Shown here: positions 8,193 through 13,688 of the stretch, piece after piece | How the letters are laid out: every line of letters starts with the position of its first letter | How positions within the stretch are numbered: the stretch's first letter is position 1 | Assembly: GCF_012726345.1 (NCBI RefSeq) | Contig: NZ_PTXN01000006.1 | Span: forward strand, 1-64,000 | Source of the DNA: Marinomonas sp. UCMA 3892 | GTDB lineage: Bacteria; Pseudomonadota; Gammaproteobacteria; Pseudomonadales; Marinomonadaceae | DNA: 64,000 nt | Direction of reading: 5' to 3' | Position numbers and translations under genes: made by a program | Notes under the pieces: generated by a model | Seen by the model: the letters and a program-made list of their open reading frames with translations, nothing else | Databases searched by the model: none | Told to the model about the DNA's origin: nothing

Positions 8193-11100
8193 CTATTTAT
8201 TACTTAGCCCAACAATGACTTTGACCATGCCCAGATCGGTCACTAAGGGGCCAATAGACTCAGATAAACTCGTAAAGCGCAGTTTATCTGCCAAGGTTTC
8301 TGTCTTGATGTAATCAAGGTGATGCTGGCACCAATGAGTCAGTACGTCACTCGCTTCGATACTAATGTCGATGCGATCCAACACCTTGTAGCCCTGTTGC
8401 TTACGCATTTTCTGAATGTGGCTGACAATCTCTCGCATGGCGCCTTCTGCCACTAATTCTTCTGTCAGTTCTGGGTCGATGCTGATCGACACAAAACGGT
8501 TGGACGTGGTGTGCGTACCCGCTTTGGCTTGACGATAGACGTTAATCTCTTCTTGGTTAAATACTTGCCCATCCACCTCGATTTGCCCGTGGGTTTCTAG
8601 GTGCTCCAGCTCTTGCTCATTGAGTTGCGCAATACGTGCTGCATAGTGTTTCATCTGCTTGCCAAGGCGTTTGCCTAAAACCGGGAAATTCGCTTTAGCG
8701 TAGAAGTCGATGTAGTCATTTTCCTGTTGGCTAAAGAGTACGTATTTGATGTTCAGCTCGGTTTGAACGTAATTGGTTAAACGGGCGATGTCGTTTAGTA
8801 CCTGAGCCTCTTTATGCAATACGGTCAGCGATTTGAGCGGGGTTTTTAGTTTAATTTTCAAATCGTTACGCAGTTGGCGGCCCATTACCAAGATGTGCTG
8901 AACACGAGCGACACTGGCTTCTAAGTCTTCGTCTTTTAACGCCGCATTTGCTGTGGGGTAGTCGCATAAATGCACAGACTCTGGCCTATCGTTAGCTGAA
9001 AAAGGCAGCAGCTCTTGGTATAGATGTTCCGCAAGGAAGGGCGTAAAAGGTGCCATTAAAGTACCAAATGTATCCAAACAAGAGTACAAAGTGTGATAAG
9101 CCTGTTGTTTGTCTTCATTCATTTCTTTTTGCCAAAAGCGGGCTCGATTCAAACGGATATAGCCATTAGTGAGATCTTCGATAAACTCAAATAGCGCAGG
9201 CACCACGTTGTAGAGATGGTAGGCTTGCATCTCCTGATTGACCTTGGTTGTTAAGGTTTGCAGGCGAGACAATATCCACTGGTCCAAGATGTTATCAGAG
9301 GATTTGTCCGATCCTGAGTCTTGCCATTGATCGATCTCGGCGTAGGTCGAGAAGAAGCGAAAACCATTGAGCCAAGGCAACAAGACCTGACGCACCATAT
9401 CTTGTACGCCCGCATCAGAAAAACGCTGCTCTTCCGCCTTTACCAAGCCTGAGTTAATCAAATATAGACGCAAAGCATCCGCCCCGTAGTGTTCCATCAG
9501 AGTGTCTGGGGGCGTGTAGTTTTTGAAACGCTTGGACATTTTCTTGCCATCTTCCGCCATCACGATGCCATTGACGATAACGTTTTTAAACGCTGGTCGC
9601 CCGAACAAACATTGGCTGAGAACTTGTAAGGTATAAAACCAGCCCCGTGTTTGATCCACCCCTTCTGCGATAAACGCAGCTGGGAAGTTACGTTCAAATT
9701 GCTCTTTATTTTCAAAGGGATAGTGCACTTGTGCATAAGGCATGGCACCGGACTCAAACCAGCAGTCGAATACTTCCGCAATGCGTCGATAGGTGCCTGG
9801 TTCCTCTGGAAGTGAGAAAGTCAGTTCATCAACATGATCACGATGCAAATCGTCGACGGTTACGCCAGTGTAGTTTTTTAACTCTTCTATAGAGCCAAGA
9901 CACAAATGCTTTCCTGTTGTATCGTTTACCCAGATTGGCAGCGGAGTACCCCAATAGCGGTTACGCGATACCGACCAATCGATTGCCCCTTCTAACCATT
10001 TTCCCATGCGGCCTTGTTGGATATGCTCTGGTACCCAATTGATCTGTTCGTTGTTGGCTTGTAGCTCTGCACGCATTTGCTCTACCTTGATGTACCAAGA
10101 GGGCACAGAACGGTAGATGATGGGCGTATCGGAGCGAGGACAAAAAGGATAACTATGGGTGATGGTTTCCTGACGGTACAAAAGATCACGCGCTTTTAAT
10201 GTTTGCATGATAGCTTTATCTGCATCTTTCACATACAAGCTCTTGTAGTCAGTCACTTCATGGGTGAAGCGGCCACGACTGTCCAAAGGGCAAACAGAGG
10301 CATGTAGACCATTGGCTTTGCAGACGCGGTTATCGTCTTCACCAAAGGCAGGTGCCATGTGAACAATGCCTGTACCACTGCCAGTCGAGACAAAATCATC
10401 GGCAAATACTTGGAAAGCACCGGACTCATTCAAGTGGCTAAAATAGGGGAAAAGCGGCTCGTAGTGTTTACCACTCAAGTCTGCTCCCAAAACTTTATCA
10501 AGCACCTCTACATCACGGCCTTTGCACATAGATTCCAGTTGCGCCTCGGCGAGCCAAAGGGTTTTGTTGATAGTGGCATCATGTACTTTGACATAAGGAA
10601 TGTCTGGGCCAACGCACAGGGCAAGATTTGAAGGCAGTGTCCAAGGTGTGGTTGTCCAAGCGGCAAAATAGGCGTCTTCCTCTACGAGTTTAAACAATAC
10701 AGTGACCGCAGGGTCTTGAACTTCCTTGTAGTTAGAACTGGCTTCAAAGTTAGATAATACGGTTTCCAGCTCAGTGGAATAGGCGATAACCTTGTCCCCT
10801 TGGTAGACGAGTCCTTTGTCCCACAGTTGTTTAAAGACCCACCAAACGGACTCCATGTACCAAGGCTCCATGGTGCGATAATCGTTGTCAAAATCTACCC
10901 AGCGGCCAAGGCGCGTGATGGTCTTTTCCCACTCGCTGGCATAACGCTGAACAATGCCACGGCATTCCGCGTTGTAACGGGCGATACCCAGCGATTCAAC
11001 TGCTTCTTTGGCGGACATACCAAGGGATTTATCGATTTCATGCTCGATGGGCAAACCATGACAATCCCAACCAAAACGGCGCTCTACATGGAATCCTTTC

Positions 11101-11363
11101 ATCGTAAAGTAACGCGGGATGATGTCTTTGATGGTTGATGCCACCAGATGACCATGATGGGGCAACCCCGTTGCAAACGGTGGCCCATCGTAAAACACAT
11201 AGTCAGGCTTATGCTTCGAAGCGGCAAGAGAGCGCTTAAAAATCTGTTTGTCCTGCCAAAATGTCAGCACAGCATGTTCAGCATCCACGAACGAAAAACG
11301 CTCGGATGTAGAGGGATTGTCAGCCTCAGGGGCTAAATGCGAAGGGGAGTCTTGAGTACTCAT
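8193..11363 (-). CDS. ileS: Isoleucyl-tRNA synthetase, eukaryote-like type 2
   Basis: Charges tRNA-Ile with isoleucine in the cytoplasm. At 1056 residues it is longer than the usual proteobacterial enzyme (about 940). Its motifs are those of the eukaryote/archaeal-like IleRS2 group: FYDGPPFATGLPHHGHL with HHGH at 69-72 as the HIGH motif, RRFGWDCHGLPIEHEIDK, and KMSKR at 608-612 as the KMSKS motif. The CP1 editing domain lies between, and a long anticodon-binding and C-terminal region follows. IleRS2 enzymes are known to be poorly inhibited by mupirocin; that this one is so is inference. The gene stands alone, and its 5' leader carries a peptide with five consecutive Ile codons plus terminator and antiterminator, so expression should rise when charged tRNA-Ile is scarce. 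Whether the genome also has an IleRS1 cannot be seen here. Confidence 0.95.
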   Translation of the reverse strand: MSTQDSPSHLAPEADNPSTSERFSFVDAEHAVLTFWQDKQIFKRSLAASKHKPDYVFYDGPPFATGLPHHGHLVASTIKDIIPRYFTMKGFHVERRFGWDCHGLPIEHEIDKSLGMSAKEAVESLGIARYNAECRGIVQRYASEWEKTITRLGRWVDFDNDYRTMEPWYMESVWWVFKQLWDKGLVYQGDKVIAYSTELETVLSNFEASSNYKEVQDPAVTVLFKLVEEDAYFAAWTTTPWTLPSNLALCVGPDIPYVKVHDATINKTLWLAEAQLESMCKGRDVEVLDKVLGADLSGKHYEPLFPYFSHLNESGAFQVFADDFVSTGSGTGIVHMAPAFGEDDNRVCKANGLHASVCPLDSRGRFTHEVTDYKSLYVKDADKAIMQTLKARDLLYRQETITHSYPFCPRSDTPIIYRSVPSWYIKVEQMRAELQANNEQINWVPEHIQQGRMGKWLEGAIDWSVSRNRYWGTPLPIWVNDTTGKHLCLGSIEELKNYTGVTVDDLHRDHVDELTFSLPEEPGTYRRIAEVFDCWFESGAMPYAQVHYPFENKEQFERNFPAAFIAEGVDQTRGWFYTLQVLSQCLFGRPAFKNVIVNGIVMAEDGKKMSKRFKNYTPPDTLMEHYGADALRLYLINSGLVKAEEQRFSDAGVQDMVRQVLLPWLNGFRFFSTYAEIDQWQDSGSDKSSDNILDQWILSRLQTLTTKVNQEMQAYHLYNVVPALFEFIEDLTNGYIRLNRARFWQKEMNEDKQQAYHTLYSCLDTFGTLMAPFTPFLAEHLYQELLPFSANDRPESVHLCDYPTANAALKDEDLEASVARVQHILVMGRQLRNDLKIKLKTPLKSLTVLHKEAQVLNDIARLTNYVQTELNIKYVLFSQQENDYIDFYAKANFPVLGKRLGKQMKHYAARIAQLNEQELEHLETHGQIEVDGQVFNQEEINVYRQAKAGTHTTSNRFVSISIDPELTEELVAEGAMREIVSHIQKMRKQQGYKVLDRIDISIEASDVLTHWCQHHLDYIKTETLADKLRFTSLSESIGPLVTDLGMVKVIVGLSNK

Positions 11364-11390: not shown

Positions 11391-11423
11391 CAGAAAAAAG
11401 AAACCCGCCTCTTGGGCGGGTTT
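11391..11423 (-). terminator. ileS attenuator terminator
   Basis: On the minus strand, AAACCCGCC (11423-11415) and GGCGGGTTT (11409-11401) form a perfect 9-bp GC-rich stem with a 5-base loop, followed at once by CTTTTTTC. It lies between the Ile-rich leader peptide and ileS, 28 bases before the ileS start codon, and so would end transcription before the gene. The 5' arm can alternatively pair with an upstream segment (see antiterminator). Confidence 0.9.
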
Positions 11424-11486
11424 GCTTTATTTACTCAACAACGAACCCACCACTCCTAGGAATGATGATAATAATTCGTTGCTGAG
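11402..11486 (-). promoter_or_regulatory. Pause hairpin and antiterminator of the ileS leader
   Basis: Three mutually exclusive pairings can be read directly on the minus strand. Segment 1 CTCAGCAACGAA (11486-11475) pairs with segment 2 TTCGTTGTTGAG (11445-11434), 12 pairs with one G-U, bracketing the Ile codons. Segment 2's 5' side GGTGGGTT (11451-11444) pairs with segment 3 AACCCGCC (11422-11415), 8 pairs with one G-U. Segment 3 otherwise forms the terminator with 11409-11402. A ribosome stalled at the Ile codons covers segment 1, frees segment 2 to take segment 3, and blocks the terminator. This is the trp/ilv-type attenuator logic. Confidence 0.85.
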
Positions 11487-11505
11487 TAAGGGATACGTTT
11501 TTCAT
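11431..11505 (-). CDS. Isoleucine leader peptide of ileS (24 residues)
   Basis: Small ORF upstream of ileS. Codons 11-15 are ATT ATT ATC ATC ATT, five isoleucines in a row, within a 24-residue peptide that otherwise holds no Ile. Such a run is the hallmark of a leader peptide whose translation senses charged tRNA-Ile. The stop codon (11431-11433) falls eight bases before the terminator stem. The ribosome site is weak (GAG five bases upstream), and a promoter placed just upstream might give a nearly leaderless message. Function is inferred from the codon run and the competing hairpins; I do not know of a described Ile-codon attenuator for an IleRS2 gene. Confidence 0.88.
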   Translation of the reverse strand: MKNVSLTQQRIIIIIPRSGGFVVE

Positions 11506-11512
11506 AGCTCTA

Positions 11513-11541
11513 TTTTTACCTTTGATCAGAATGACAGTCAA
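11513..11541 (-). promoter_or_regulatory. Candidate sigma-70 promoter of the ileS leader
   Basis: On the minus strand TTGACT (11541-11536) is separated by 17 bases from TAAAAA (11518-11513). A start about seven bases further on would fall close to the leader peptide ATG at 11505, giving a very short or absent 5' UTR. Confidence 0.5.
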
Positions 11542-11590: not shown

Positions 11591-11665
11591 AGCATTTTTT
11601 ATATAGTCTTAAAATCAACGTAAATTTGTTGGAAATGGTTTTTTATGATTATTTCAATGCGGTTT
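11591..11665 (+). repeat. Copy 2 of the AAA-gene-start repeat
   Basis: The functional copy: the last 54 bases upstream of the AAA ATPase gene and its first seven codons. Matches 1131-1205 at about 85% identity by eye, same orientation. Similarity stops after the CGGTTT of codons 6-7 in both directions of comparison. Confidence 0.7.
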
Positions 11666-12829
11666 AGCAATTTTTATAGCTTTGCCCAAGAAGCATCGAT
11701 TAACTTTGCTGTGGGGAAAAAGCCAATCCCATCTGGGTTTGATGTCAACTTGCCTGACATTCGTTTAAACAAAGTGCTTGCTGTAGTTGGGGCAAATGGA
11801 TCCGGTAAGACGCAATTTATAAAACCACTGGTCTTTTTAAGCTGGTTTGCCAGTTCGTCCTTTTTAAAAGGTGATCCTGATAGTGATGTTCCTTTTCAAC
11901 CTCACCGTCTTCACCTTGAGGAAGACACCATGGTTGAAGTCGATTTCTTATTAGACAATCAGACTTATCGGTATCGACTTGTACTTAATAATGAACGTAT
12001 TCAATTCGAAGGTTTGTATGTAAAAACAAGCAGTCAGTTCAGTTACCTATTTAAGCGAGAAAAAAAGGGTGAGACGTTTTCTTTTAAAGAAAAGGGATTT
12101 CCTTTCCCTGCAAATAAGGCGGAAACACTTCGTGATAATGCCTCTCTTTTGTCTGCGGCCTATAGTTACGATATTTTAGAAGCTCGCCCATTTATTGATT
12201 TTTTTAAAAGTGTTGCAAGCAATGTGGCTTATATGGGGCGTAGACATTTCCGATCTGAAGCCTTGTTTCATGCCGCAGAATCGTATGAAAAGTCACCAAG
12301 GCTAAAAGCTCGCATGATCGAAGTAATGGGAATGTTTGATTTAGGGTTGTCTAACGTGGAGATTAAAGCGTTTAAAGCGACGGACAAAGATGGCTCATCT
12401 GAACAACTTTATATGCCTATTGGCATACATCAATCTGCTGATGGAAAAGCGTTTTCCTTACCGTTTTTGGAAGAATCGAGTGGTACGCAATCGGCCTTTG
12501 TAATGTTAGAGCGCCTGTTGACCGTGCTTGAAAACGGCGGTTGCGCTGTGATTGATGAAATCGATAATGACCTACATCCATACTTGATTCCTAAAATCAT
12601 AGAATGGTTTCGCTTTGAACATACTAATCCCCATCAAGCTCAACTCATCTTCACGTGTCACACGCCAGAAGTCCTTAACCGCTTGCAAAAACACCAGATT
12701 TATCTTTGTGAAAAACAGCAACAAATCTCAGATGCATGGCGTTTAGATGAGGTGGTTGGTGTACGAGCTGATGATAATCTCTATGCCAAATATATGGCTG
12801 GAGCACTTGGCGCAGTACCAGAACTGTAA
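11645..12829 (+). CDS. AAA15-type (OLD/RloA-like) ATPase, candidate phage defence
   Basis: 394-residue ABC-like ATPase of the AAA15/AAA21 type that pairs with a TOPRIM partner in many anti-phage systems (RloA/RloB, PARIS AriA/AriB and relatives). It opens MIISMRFSNFYSFAQEA, the typical SMC/RecF-like N-terminal strand. The Walker A GANGSGKT is at 49-56, a signature-like ESSGTQ at 277-282, Walker B AVIDEIDNDLHP at 301-312, and a switch histidine in FTCHTPE (H339). No nuclease domain is fused, so the catalytic part is expected in the next gene, 39 bases downstream. The defence role is inferred from architecture and neighbours, not shown. Confidence 0.78.
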   Translation: MIISMRFSNFYSFAQEASINFAVGKKPIPSGFDVNLPDIRLNKVLAVVGANGSGKTQFIKPLVFLSWFASSSFLKGDPDSDVPFQPHRLHLEEDTMVEVDFLLDNQTYRYRLVLNNERIQFEGLYVKTSSQFSYLFKREKKGETFSFKEKGFPFPANKAETLRDNASLLSAAYSYDILEARPFIDFFKSVASNVAYMGRRHFRSEALFHAAESYEKSPRLKARMIEVMGMFDLGLSNVEIKAFKATDKDGSSEQLYMPIGIHQSADGKAFSLPFLEESSGTQSAFVMLERLLTVLENGGCAVIDEIDNDLHPYLIPKIIEWFRFEHTNPHQAQLIFTCHTPEVLNRLQKHQIYLCEKQQQISDAWRLDEVVGVRADDNLYAKYMAGALGAVPEL

Positions 12830-12868: not shown

Positions 12869-13330
12869 ATGGCCAAACGTAAACAGATTAGAAAAACAGT
12901 CAGCACATCGCTTCTGGTTGTAGGCGAAGGTGCCGATGATAAAGCTTTTATAGACCACATGAAGCGATTCTTTTGTCCGAGATCTTGTGGTCGAACTGCC
13001 AAAGTGGAAGCGGGGGATGGCGGTTCAGCAGGAAATATTATTCAAAATGCCATTCGTAGTTTTAAAGCTGTTGATTACGACAAACGTTACCTTGTTCTAG
13101 ACTCGGATCTTCCTCCCACTAATGCTGAAATGAAAAAAGCACATCAGAATGGCTACAAGATAATACTTTGGTCATCACAATGCTTAGAAGGTGCATTATT
13201 AGATGTACTTGGAGAGCGGGTGAACGACCATGAAACCAGTCAAGATCTTAAAAAGCGTCTGCATCCACGACTTGATGGTAAACATACCGACATGAATGCC
13301 TACCAAACCCTTTTTCCAGAAGACATCTAA
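12869..13330 (+). CDS. Small TOPRIM/RloB-like protein, partner of the AAA ATPase
   Basis: 153-residue cytoplasmic protein with a TOPRIM-like pattern: VVGEGADDKAFIDHMKR (conserved Glu near residue 20 followed by the acidic pair) and LVLDSDLPP (D-x-D near residue 70), then SSQCLEGALLDVL, comparable to the S-N-P-C-F-E-x-W-L-L block of RloB and DUF4435 proteins. Such proteins act as nucleases or effectors controlled by an AAA15 ATPase. It is shorter than typical RloB (about 200) or AriB (about 300), so it may be a minimal form or have lost its C terminus; the coding frame is intact and ends cleanly. The start follows AAAGGA. Assignment is by motif pattern, moderate confidence. Confidence 0.62.
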   Translation: MAKRKQIRKTVSTSLLVVGEGADDKAFIDHMKRFFCPRSCGRTAKVEAGDGGSAGNIIQNAIRSFKAVDYDKRYLVLDSDLPPTNAEMKKAHQNGYKIILWSSQCLEGALLDVLGERVNDHETSQDLKKRLHPRLDGKHTDMNAYQTLFPEDI

Positions 13331-13439: not shown

Positions 13440-13688
13440 ATGACTTCTAGAATCCTTTCCGACGTGGCAGCCAGCATTACGGAATTTAAAGCCAACCCAA
13501 TGAAAGTTGCCGCCAGCGCACACGGTAAAGCGGTTGCTGTATTAAATCGCAATGAACCTGCGTTTTACTGTGTCCCTGCCGAAGCGTATGAAGCCTTAAT
13601 GGATAAATTGGAAGATATGGAACTGATAGCACTCGCGAAGGAACGCGCCAATGAAGAAAGTATCTCAGTCAGTCTCGCTGACTTATAA
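13440..13688 (+). CDS. stbD: Phd/YefM (StbD-like) antitoxin
   Basis: 82-residue antitoxin of the Phd/YefM fold. The DNA-binding N-terminal half reads SRILSDVAASITEFKANPMKV and GKAVAVLNRNEPAFYCVPAEAYEAL, the classic Phd pattern, and a shorter toxin-binding C-terminal helix follows. It would neutralise a RelE/StbE-type toxin encoded immediately downstream and repress the operon through the palindrome before the gene. Here the toxin gene is broken, so the antitoxin is an orphan. The ribosome site AAAGGTG is well placed. The symbol is by resemblance to StbD. Confidence 0.82.
   Translation: MTSRILSDVAASITEFKANPMKVAASAHGKAVAVLNRNEPAFYCVPAEAYEALMDKLEDMELIALAKERANEESISVSLADL

Follow-up and report, generated by a model that had tools for sequence, protein, structure and literature searches.

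Background

What controls a second isoleucyl-tRNA synthetase (IleRS) gene in a genome that already holds one? The question is raised by a locus of Marinomonas sp. UCMA 3892, lying within the 64,000-nucleotide stretch of DNA that was analysed as a whole and that we refer to as the window. At this locus a eukaryote-like IleRS gene, ileS2, is preceded by a short open reading frame (ORF) with a run of isoleucine codons and by sequences able to form alternative stems, an arrangement that an initial annotation had described as a complete ribosome-mediated attenuator. Leader-peptide attenuation is a textbook mechanism for the control of biosynthetic operons. Attenuated aminoacyl-tRNA synthetases are represented by few cases to our knowledge, pheST among them.

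With a switch of this kind the amount of a spare IleRS, which has seemingly spread horizontally, would depend directly on the charging of tRNA-Ile, and the cell would be able to respond simply and inducibly to IleRS inhibitors. An Rfam family listed as a small RNA (sRNA) would also gain a function and, the switch being shared, there would be a starting point for three gene families whose role is unclear (FlaR-like, DUF4440 and GNAT).

Results

ileS2 and the other isoleucyl-tRNA synthetase of the genome

The gene behind the switch, ileS2 (8193 to 11363, minus strand), encodes a eukaryote-like isoleucine--tRNA ligase of 1056 amino acids in which both the HHGH and the KMSKR motifs are present. 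Its product scores 960 bits against TIGR00392 (cutoff 621) and is the second IleRS of the genome, a separate ileS1 (940 amino acids; 31 % identity to the ileS2 product) being located elsewhere. Among the special NCBIfam models the product is most like the MupA/MupB type, with 752 bits to MupB and 740 bits to MupA, both below the exception cutoffs of 1900 that these models carry. The initial annotation had called the gene a type-2 IleRS, and the similarity to MupA/MupB over the housekeeping enzyme, at these sub-cutoff scores, agrees with that assignment. The IleRS2 of M. spartinae is 96 % identical to the window protein. The hyper-resistant form of IleRS2, characterized by a swapped GXHH motif in place of HXGH (PMC10485003), was ruled out for the window protein, which has the canonical HHGH.

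Two genes adjoining ileS2, at 11645-12829 and 12869-13330 on the plus strand, resemble the AbiLi/AbiLii phage-defence pair (PADLOC, 244 and 71 bits). The first gene of this pair also adjoins ileS2 at locus L167 and was not seen within 1500 bases of ileS2 at the five remaining Marinomonas loci, a variability that suggests a variable, island-like place for ileS2. Further on, a PhdYefM-type antitoxin gene (13440-13688, plus strand) has no clear toxin gene after it; at another Marinomonas locus (L170) a similar antitoxin gene stands beside ileS2 and is followed by a 103-aa ORF, a possible toxin.

An isoleucine-rich leader ORF and three exclusive stems

All coordinates of the switch refer to the minus strand. 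The predicted leader ORF of 24 codons runs from an ATG at 11505 to a TAA at 11431 and encodes the peptide MKNVSLTQQRIIIIIPRSGGFVVE; its codons 11 to 15 (11461-11475; ATT ATT ATC ATC ATT) are five consecutive isoleucine codons, the putative regulatory codons of the switch. A predicted leader promoter occupies 11512-11541, with TTGACT at 11541-11536 and either TAAAAA at 11518-11513 or AAAAAT at 11517-11512. With AAAAAT and an 18-nt spacer this promoter has 9 of 12 matches, which as a pattern is not above chance, and promoter-like sites between 11340 and 11700 show no excess over chance (2 against 1.3 expected). An in-frame TTG at 11541 falls within the promoter-like TTGACT.

The leader RNA can adopt three alternative stems. 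Hairpin 1:2, the predicted pause or protector hairpin (11431-11489), consists of an outer stem of 16 pairs (11489-11474 with 11446-11431) and an inner stem of 9 pairs (11468-11460 with 11455-11447), the 5′ strand of the inner stem lying almost wholly inside the isoleucine codons. Segment 2 (GGTGGGTT, 11444-11451) is the 5′ strand of the antiterminator and forms 8 pairs (11451-11444 with 11422-11415) with segment 3 (AACCCGCC, 11415-11422), which serves as the 3′ strand of this helix and also contributes to the 5′ arm of the terminator. The intrinsic terminator (11394-11423) is made of a 9-bp stem (11423-11415 with 11409-11401), a single C and a tract of six T (11399-11394). The feature proposed in the initial annotation is confirmed where it had been placed: the 24-residue leader with its isoleucine run at codons 11-15, the 8-pair antiterminator and the 9-pair terminator with six T are all found, with the detail that a C precedes the T tract. 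Its pause hairpin of 12 pairs is a real stem that had been drawn too short, the outer stem extending to 16 pairs, and the 9-pair inner stem had been missed.

The switch at this locus is not a product of chance. The 151-nt stretch has a folding z score of -5.3, with none of 200 shuffles equally stable, and among 1561 short ORFs in the window (8-45 codons, both strands) the leader ORF is the only one with at least four consecutive isoleucine codons. Terminator-like sites between 11340 and 11700 number 3 against 0.2 expected, counting both strands and including the inner stem as one of the three.

Conservation of the switch before ileS2

At least 80 ileS2 loci were gathered, 51 of 80 having been viewed earlier with looser criteria, and fixed criteria were applied to the upstream regions of 45; adding the window and three Marinomonas loci gives a scored set of 49. 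An isoleucine-rich leader ORF with a GGTGGG/CCCGCC/GGCGGG switch is present in 21 of these upstream regions (19 found by script, L051 and L061 by eye) and the other 28 are without it. The positives come from Marinomonas, Veronia nyctiphanis, Vibrio sonorensis, Vibrio albus, Natronospirillum and several Pseudomonadales and gammaproteobacterial metagenome-assembled genomes (MAGs). The diverged leaders of Vibrio, Veronia, Natronospirillum and the MAGs encode different peptides and keep both the isoleucine-rich codons and the switch.

Among the 48 Marinomonas genomes sampled ileS2 occurs in 7, and a near-identical leader precedes it in all 7; absence of the isoleucine run or of the stems from close relatives, named in the initial annotation as evidence against an attenuator, is not the case. 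The genes within 1500 bases on either side of ileS2 differ at most of these loci, and near-identical leaders within differing flanks would fit a mobile unit.

A quick IleRS2 tree of 48 rows places all 18 attenuator-positive rows in one clade of 31 rows (SH-aLRT 90) and implies at least five changes of attenuator state, a count that is blind to gain versus loss. Our own reading is that the attenuator is an old feature of this ileS2 clade and has been lost several times. ileS1 was found, with an identity of at least 58 %, in 7 of the 34 genomes searched. Sixteen of the genomes searched bear the attenuator (L047 left out): ileS1 was found in 5 and not found in 11, although incompleteness of the MAGs could hide some copies. 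For many of these genomes, then, the IleRS under the switch would be the only one found, and in Marinomonas, Vibrio/Veronia and Natronospirillum it would be a second IleRS. The ileS2 of the Marinomonas and Vibrio/Veronia genomes looks to have spread horizontally. Two further loci, from Pseudoalteromonas luteoviolacea and a Vibrio (L060 and L066), have closely similar ileS2 genes that share their start region and sit on short branches, with ileS1 present and the attenuator absent, perhaps reflecting the recent transfer of another ileS2 lineage.

Leader anatomy and covariation

The geometry of the switch was analysed over 55 leaders encoding 50 distinct peptides, located before ileS2 (21), flaR-like genes (20), ilvA (7), DUF4440 genes (6) and cimA (1). 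The ileS2 positives were chosen for isoleucine-rich ORFs, and selection by eye among Rfam matches supplied the remaining 34 leaders, so that the isoleucine statistics are not selection-free. Under this selection, isoleucine takes up 179 of the 250 codons located 13-27 nt upstream of segment 2 in the 50 distinct leaders, and the other two frames of this key stretch are biased as well (Leu/Ser and Tyr/His), as they would be for any ATT/ATC repeat. Over whole leaders the isoleucine codons are ATT (146), ATC (68) and ATA (20).

At least two isoleucine codons precede segment 2 by 13 nt or more in 54 of the 55 leaders, a distance at which a stalled ribosome leaves segment 2 free. Relative to segment 2 the stop codon falls at -8 to +18 nt, again in 54 of 55, so that a ribosome terminating there covers the segment wholly or in part. 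The outlier in both counts is L051, whose segment 2 is ambiguous.

The distance from the first base of TTGA[CT] to the chosen start codon is 34-37 nt in 46 of the 55 leaders, and the remaining 9 have no TTGA[CT] within 45 nt. The start codons are our own choice: another in-frame start exists upstream in 20 of the 55 (several being the TTG of TTGAC itself), and 6 have a further Met among residues 2-9. Combined with normal sigma-70 spacing, a distance of 34-37 nt would put the start of the transcript on the ATG. The leader ORF is probably leaderless, with the predicted transcription start within 1-2 nt of its ATG.

The region before the terminator has a z score below -2 in 35 of the 55 leaders, while 20 fail to reach this value, and the outer stem beats shuffles at the 0.05 level in 11 of 55. 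The cores of segment 2, arm 3 and arm 4 read GGTGGG/CCCGCC/GGCGGG in 39 leaders, GGTGGG/CCCACC/GGTGGG in 6 and GGCGGG/CCCGCC/GGCGGG in 6, with four others. Covariation was assessed on alignment A1, which holds 38 of the 55 leaders; the 17 omitted are mostly near-duplicates and include L051. In the 1:2 and terminator stems, both-side changes occur in 8 of 19 pairs and 21 cells, against a shuffle mean of 6.7 (none of 500 shuffles as high) and 2-5 pairs with 5-14 cells in slid controls; these compensatory changes include some in the inner stem of hairpin 1:2. For the 2:3 helix, 91.7 % of cells are paired, compared with 37-55 % when slid; its core is almost invariant, and its covariation accordingly does not exceed that of shuffles. 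The structure that RNAalifold itself proposes has double changes in 4 of 13 pairs for the 38 leaders and in 1 of 15 consensus pairs for the 16 ileS2 leaders, and the covariation of the ileS2 leaders alone is too weak to argue from. Of the compensatory changes that the initial annotation had proposed to look for in all three stems, those in hairpin 1:2 and the terminator are present, and those in the antiterminator are not.

The element belongs to Rfam family RF00624 (P9)

The initial annotation had missed that the element is a member of an existing Rfam family, RF00624 (P9), annotated as an sRNA. The match (11400-11478, minus strand) spans model positions 1-74 of 74 at 53.7 bits (gathering score 43), and RF00624 is the sole Rfam family above gathering in the window. 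In the source genome the ileS2 leader is the only match, at E 0.001, both of RF00624 and of R1, a model of our own. T-box control was ruled out, no T-box being found among 26 Rfam matches up to E 5 between 11300 and 11700.

RF00624 found matches in 15 of 38 genomes of relatives (8 over the cut-off), 20 of 369 genomes of the class (4 over) and 47 of 390 of the order (16 over). All loci from the relatives and class searches were read, along with 21 new ones from the order search; around 20 weak matches of the order search had no locus and stand outside the counts. The three top genomes (82.8-86.3 bits; family code f16, which we infer to be Pseudomonadaceae) have ilvA as the next gene, behind leaders such as MTSTVLRCQPSIITAIPYLAG. 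Altogether ilvA lies behind the element at 7 loci, recognized at L126, L135 and L142 by NCBIfam (two over a cutoff) and at L127, L128, L129 and L137 by eye. cimA lies behind it at L144, where the element scores 36 bits (below gathering) and the protein, cut at the end of the locus, is under the model cutoff. ilvA and cimA both act at early steps of isoleucine synthesis, and their presence downstream elsewhere is an independent pointer to isoleucine; with elements before such genes, some of them below gathering, P9 looks like a mislabelled isoleucine attenuator.

Other kinds of gene recur behind the element. A FlaR-like P-loop kinase gene follows it at 20 loci (L001, L006-L013, L015, L028, L132, L134, L136, L138-L141, L143, L145); in the 5 that were checked the best NCBIfam match is PRK08118, always far below cutoff. 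A DUF4440/SgcJ-like (SnoaL-like) gene follows at 6 loci (L025-L027, L130, L131, L133), with TIGR02246 matched in the 2 checked; the DUF4440 leaders end, for example, in LIITIIPNEWWVF and QIITTIAPMVG. One Marinomonas genome (G019) has two members of the family, L001 before a FlaR-like gene and L016 before ileS2.

Class-wide, R1 matches 14 of 369 genomes at E ≤0.001, with leaders that are clear by eye in 5 (G000, G047, G089, G215, G385); the same 5 are clear by eye among the 20 genomes matched by RF00624, together with L043 (G311). This last locus (about 1390-1630) has a weak RF00624 match of 28.2 bits, and its leader MAPHSTASIIRILHGKAG precedes a P-loop kinase-like ORF; it is likely a further family member, kept outside all counts. 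R1 also found L163 (from 1642), where a GNAT gene lies behind an isoleucine-containing leader; in NCBIfam this GNAT best matches the acetyltransferase portion of 'ileS_w_GNAT' (63 bits, a score far under cutoff), which hints at a tie between GNAT and IleRS. Apart from L043, the weak RF00624 matches L014, L017, L018, L029-L045 and L146 have no isoleucine-rich leader by eye or by scan, and no isoleucine leader accompanies the R1 matches L154-L157, L159, L160 and L162 (read) or L161 and L164 (by scan alone). L158 shows, by eye, a thr-type leader before a thrA-like gene. L163 is outside the 55-leader set, and the leaders of L158 and L163 end beyond the range covered by the final scan and were missed there.

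Discussion

A proposed mechanism

We conclude that the element is very probably a ribosome-mediated transcription attenuator of the trp/his/pheST kind that senses charged tRNA-Ile and controls ileS2 in cis. It combines a leader in which the regulatory codon is frequent, 1:2, 2:3 and 3:4 stems that exclude one another, and the stall and stop geometry of such attenuators. The nascent window leader was folded with arm 4 unmade and the ribosome masked. The probability of the 2:3 helix, P(2:3), is 0 without a ribosome and 0 with a ribosome at the stop codon; it rises to 0.84-1.0 per pair for a stall at Ile1, Ile3 or Ile4 and to 0.82-0.97 in 7 of 8 pairs for a stall at Ile5. The proposal that stalling on isoleucine frees the antiterminator is thus supported by modelled folding of nascent RNA. 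In the complete leader at equilibrium the terminator is preferred in every state, with P(3:4) of 0.78 to 1.0 when the ribosome is stalled, so the decision would have to fall during transcription, the antiterminator being kinetically trapped. Textbook attenuators likewise decide during transcription.

The switch would operate as follows. Transcription would start at or beside the leader ATG. With plentiful Ile-tRNA(Ile), the ribosome would pass the isoleucine codons, reach the stop codon and cover segment 2; arms 3 and 4 would then pair and RNA polymerase would halt before ileS2. Without translation, hairpin 1:2 would retain segment 2 and the terminator would form too. When Ile-tRNA(Ile) is scarce, through isoleucine starvation or inhibition of IleRS1, the ribosome would stall at the isoleucine codons and open hairpin 1:2, and the freed segment 2 would pair with segment 3 before arm 4 is made, allowing transcription to enter ileS2. 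In Marinomonas and the Vibrio/Veronia genomes, where ileS2 is a second IleRS that bears marks of horizontal spread, the switch would bring up a spare enzyme once the housekeeping synthetase fails.

A wider picture is conceivable, although we lean slightly against it as a whole. The leaderless isoleucine attenuator filed as P9 may define a gammaproteobacterial regulon for isoleucine and IleRS stress (ilvA, cimA, IleRS2 and three small enzymes, namely the FlaR-like P-loop kinase, the DUF4440 protein and the GNAT acetyltransferase), and in Marinomonas and Vibrio may accompany a mobile ileS2 module that is raised only on inhibition of the housekeeping IleRS, for example by a natural antibiotic.

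Alternative explanations

The leader could instead sense through its nascent peptide or through a general slow-down of translation, with a hydrophobic RIIIIP-stop peptide stalling on a drug or ligand. TnaC and Erm leaders are the models for such behaviour, and many flaR-type leaders do end in RIIIIP-stop or RIITIIP-stop, with Pro just before the stop codon. However, Arg, Pro and the position of the stop vary in the diverged ileS2 and ilvA leaders while isoleucine richness and spacing persist, and the downstream genes ilvA, cimA and ileS2 are all tied to isoleucine; we regard peptide-based stalling as improbable. Slightly less probable again is a stand-alone sRNA P9 acting in trans, for which the terminator would be a 3′ end and both the leader ORF and the position before ileS2 would be secondary. 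In-frame isoleucine codons, their spacing to segment 2 and the 2:3 helix are needs of an attenuator and not of an sRNA, and the counted elements sit just upstream of a same-strand gene of few recurring kinds. This has to be set against the Rfam listing of RF00624 as type Gene, 'Pseudomonas sRNA P9', and against the precedent of rnTrpL from Sinorhizobium, an attenuator RNA for which an additional action in trans of the terminated form is recorded (PMC7298713). Given the in-frame isoleucine codons and the isoleucine genes downstream, we reject a plain sRNA as the main role of the RF00624 element; a trans role in addition to attenuation could exist.

Hardly credible, finally, is a chance isoleucine run before the ordinary terminator of an upstream transcript. 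Such runs arise easily in AT-rich DNA, a CCCGCC/GGCGGG stem followed by a T tract is a frequent form of terminator, and most weak RF00624 and R1 matches outside these gene families do resemble plain terminators. Yet one ORF among the 1561 short ORFs of the window has such a run, and the arrangement recurs with fixed geometry in 55 leaders and 50 distinct peptides. We retain ribosome-mediated attenuation as the most probable explanation of the locus.

Comparison with known systems

Among the closest known systems is RF00624 itself. The family consensus contains AUU AUU AUU ACC GCC AUU CCU (Ile-Ile-Ile-Thr-Ala-Ile-Pro) and a GGCGGG / CCCGCC / GGCGGG arrangement; the gene downstream is ilvA in the top-scoring genomes and ileS2 here. 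The portion of the Rfam entry available to us names no leader ORF or cis role. In E. coli pheST a Phe-rich leader peptide and alternative stems regulate an aminoacyl-tRNA synthetase. The ileS2 element is alike in placing a leader of cognate residues on a synthetase and unlike in that pheST uses Phe codons and concerns another synthetase. T-boxes, which bind tRNA directly, occur on ileS in Firmicutes as well as in Actinobacteria. In Actinobacteria the T-box on ileS is predicted to act on translation (PMC1262725). The T-box serves the same gene function and senses tRNA-Ile charging, as the switch described here would, but has no leader ORF. Bacilli offer a further parallel: His leader peptides are predicted to control an extra hisS paralogue and hisZ, Bacillus hisS having long been known to be under T-box control (PMC2965389). 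There too a duplicated synthetase has a leader peptide, but in Firmicutes and for histidine (PMC2965389).

In the literature searched, whose coverage is limited and limits any claim of novelty likewise, we found no report of an isoleucine attenuator on a proteobacterial ileS or on Pseudomonas ilvA. Term searches of the available text of two IleRS2 papers returned no mention of regulation, T-box or inducibility (PMC10485003) and none of attenuation or T-box (PMC4861432). The attenuator RNA of Sinorhizobium, rnTrpL/peTrpL, has its 5′ end at the ATG of the leader ORF and is leaderless like the predicted ileS2 leader, while differing as a Trp leader on the trp operon of an alphaproteobacterium (PMC7298713). 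In its mechanism the switch before ileS2 does not depart from ordinary ribosome-mediated attenuation. The features that appear new are its position on ileS2, its identity with P9, an isoleucine regulon sharing it, a leaderless leader in gammaproteobacteria and its spread together with a second IleRS.
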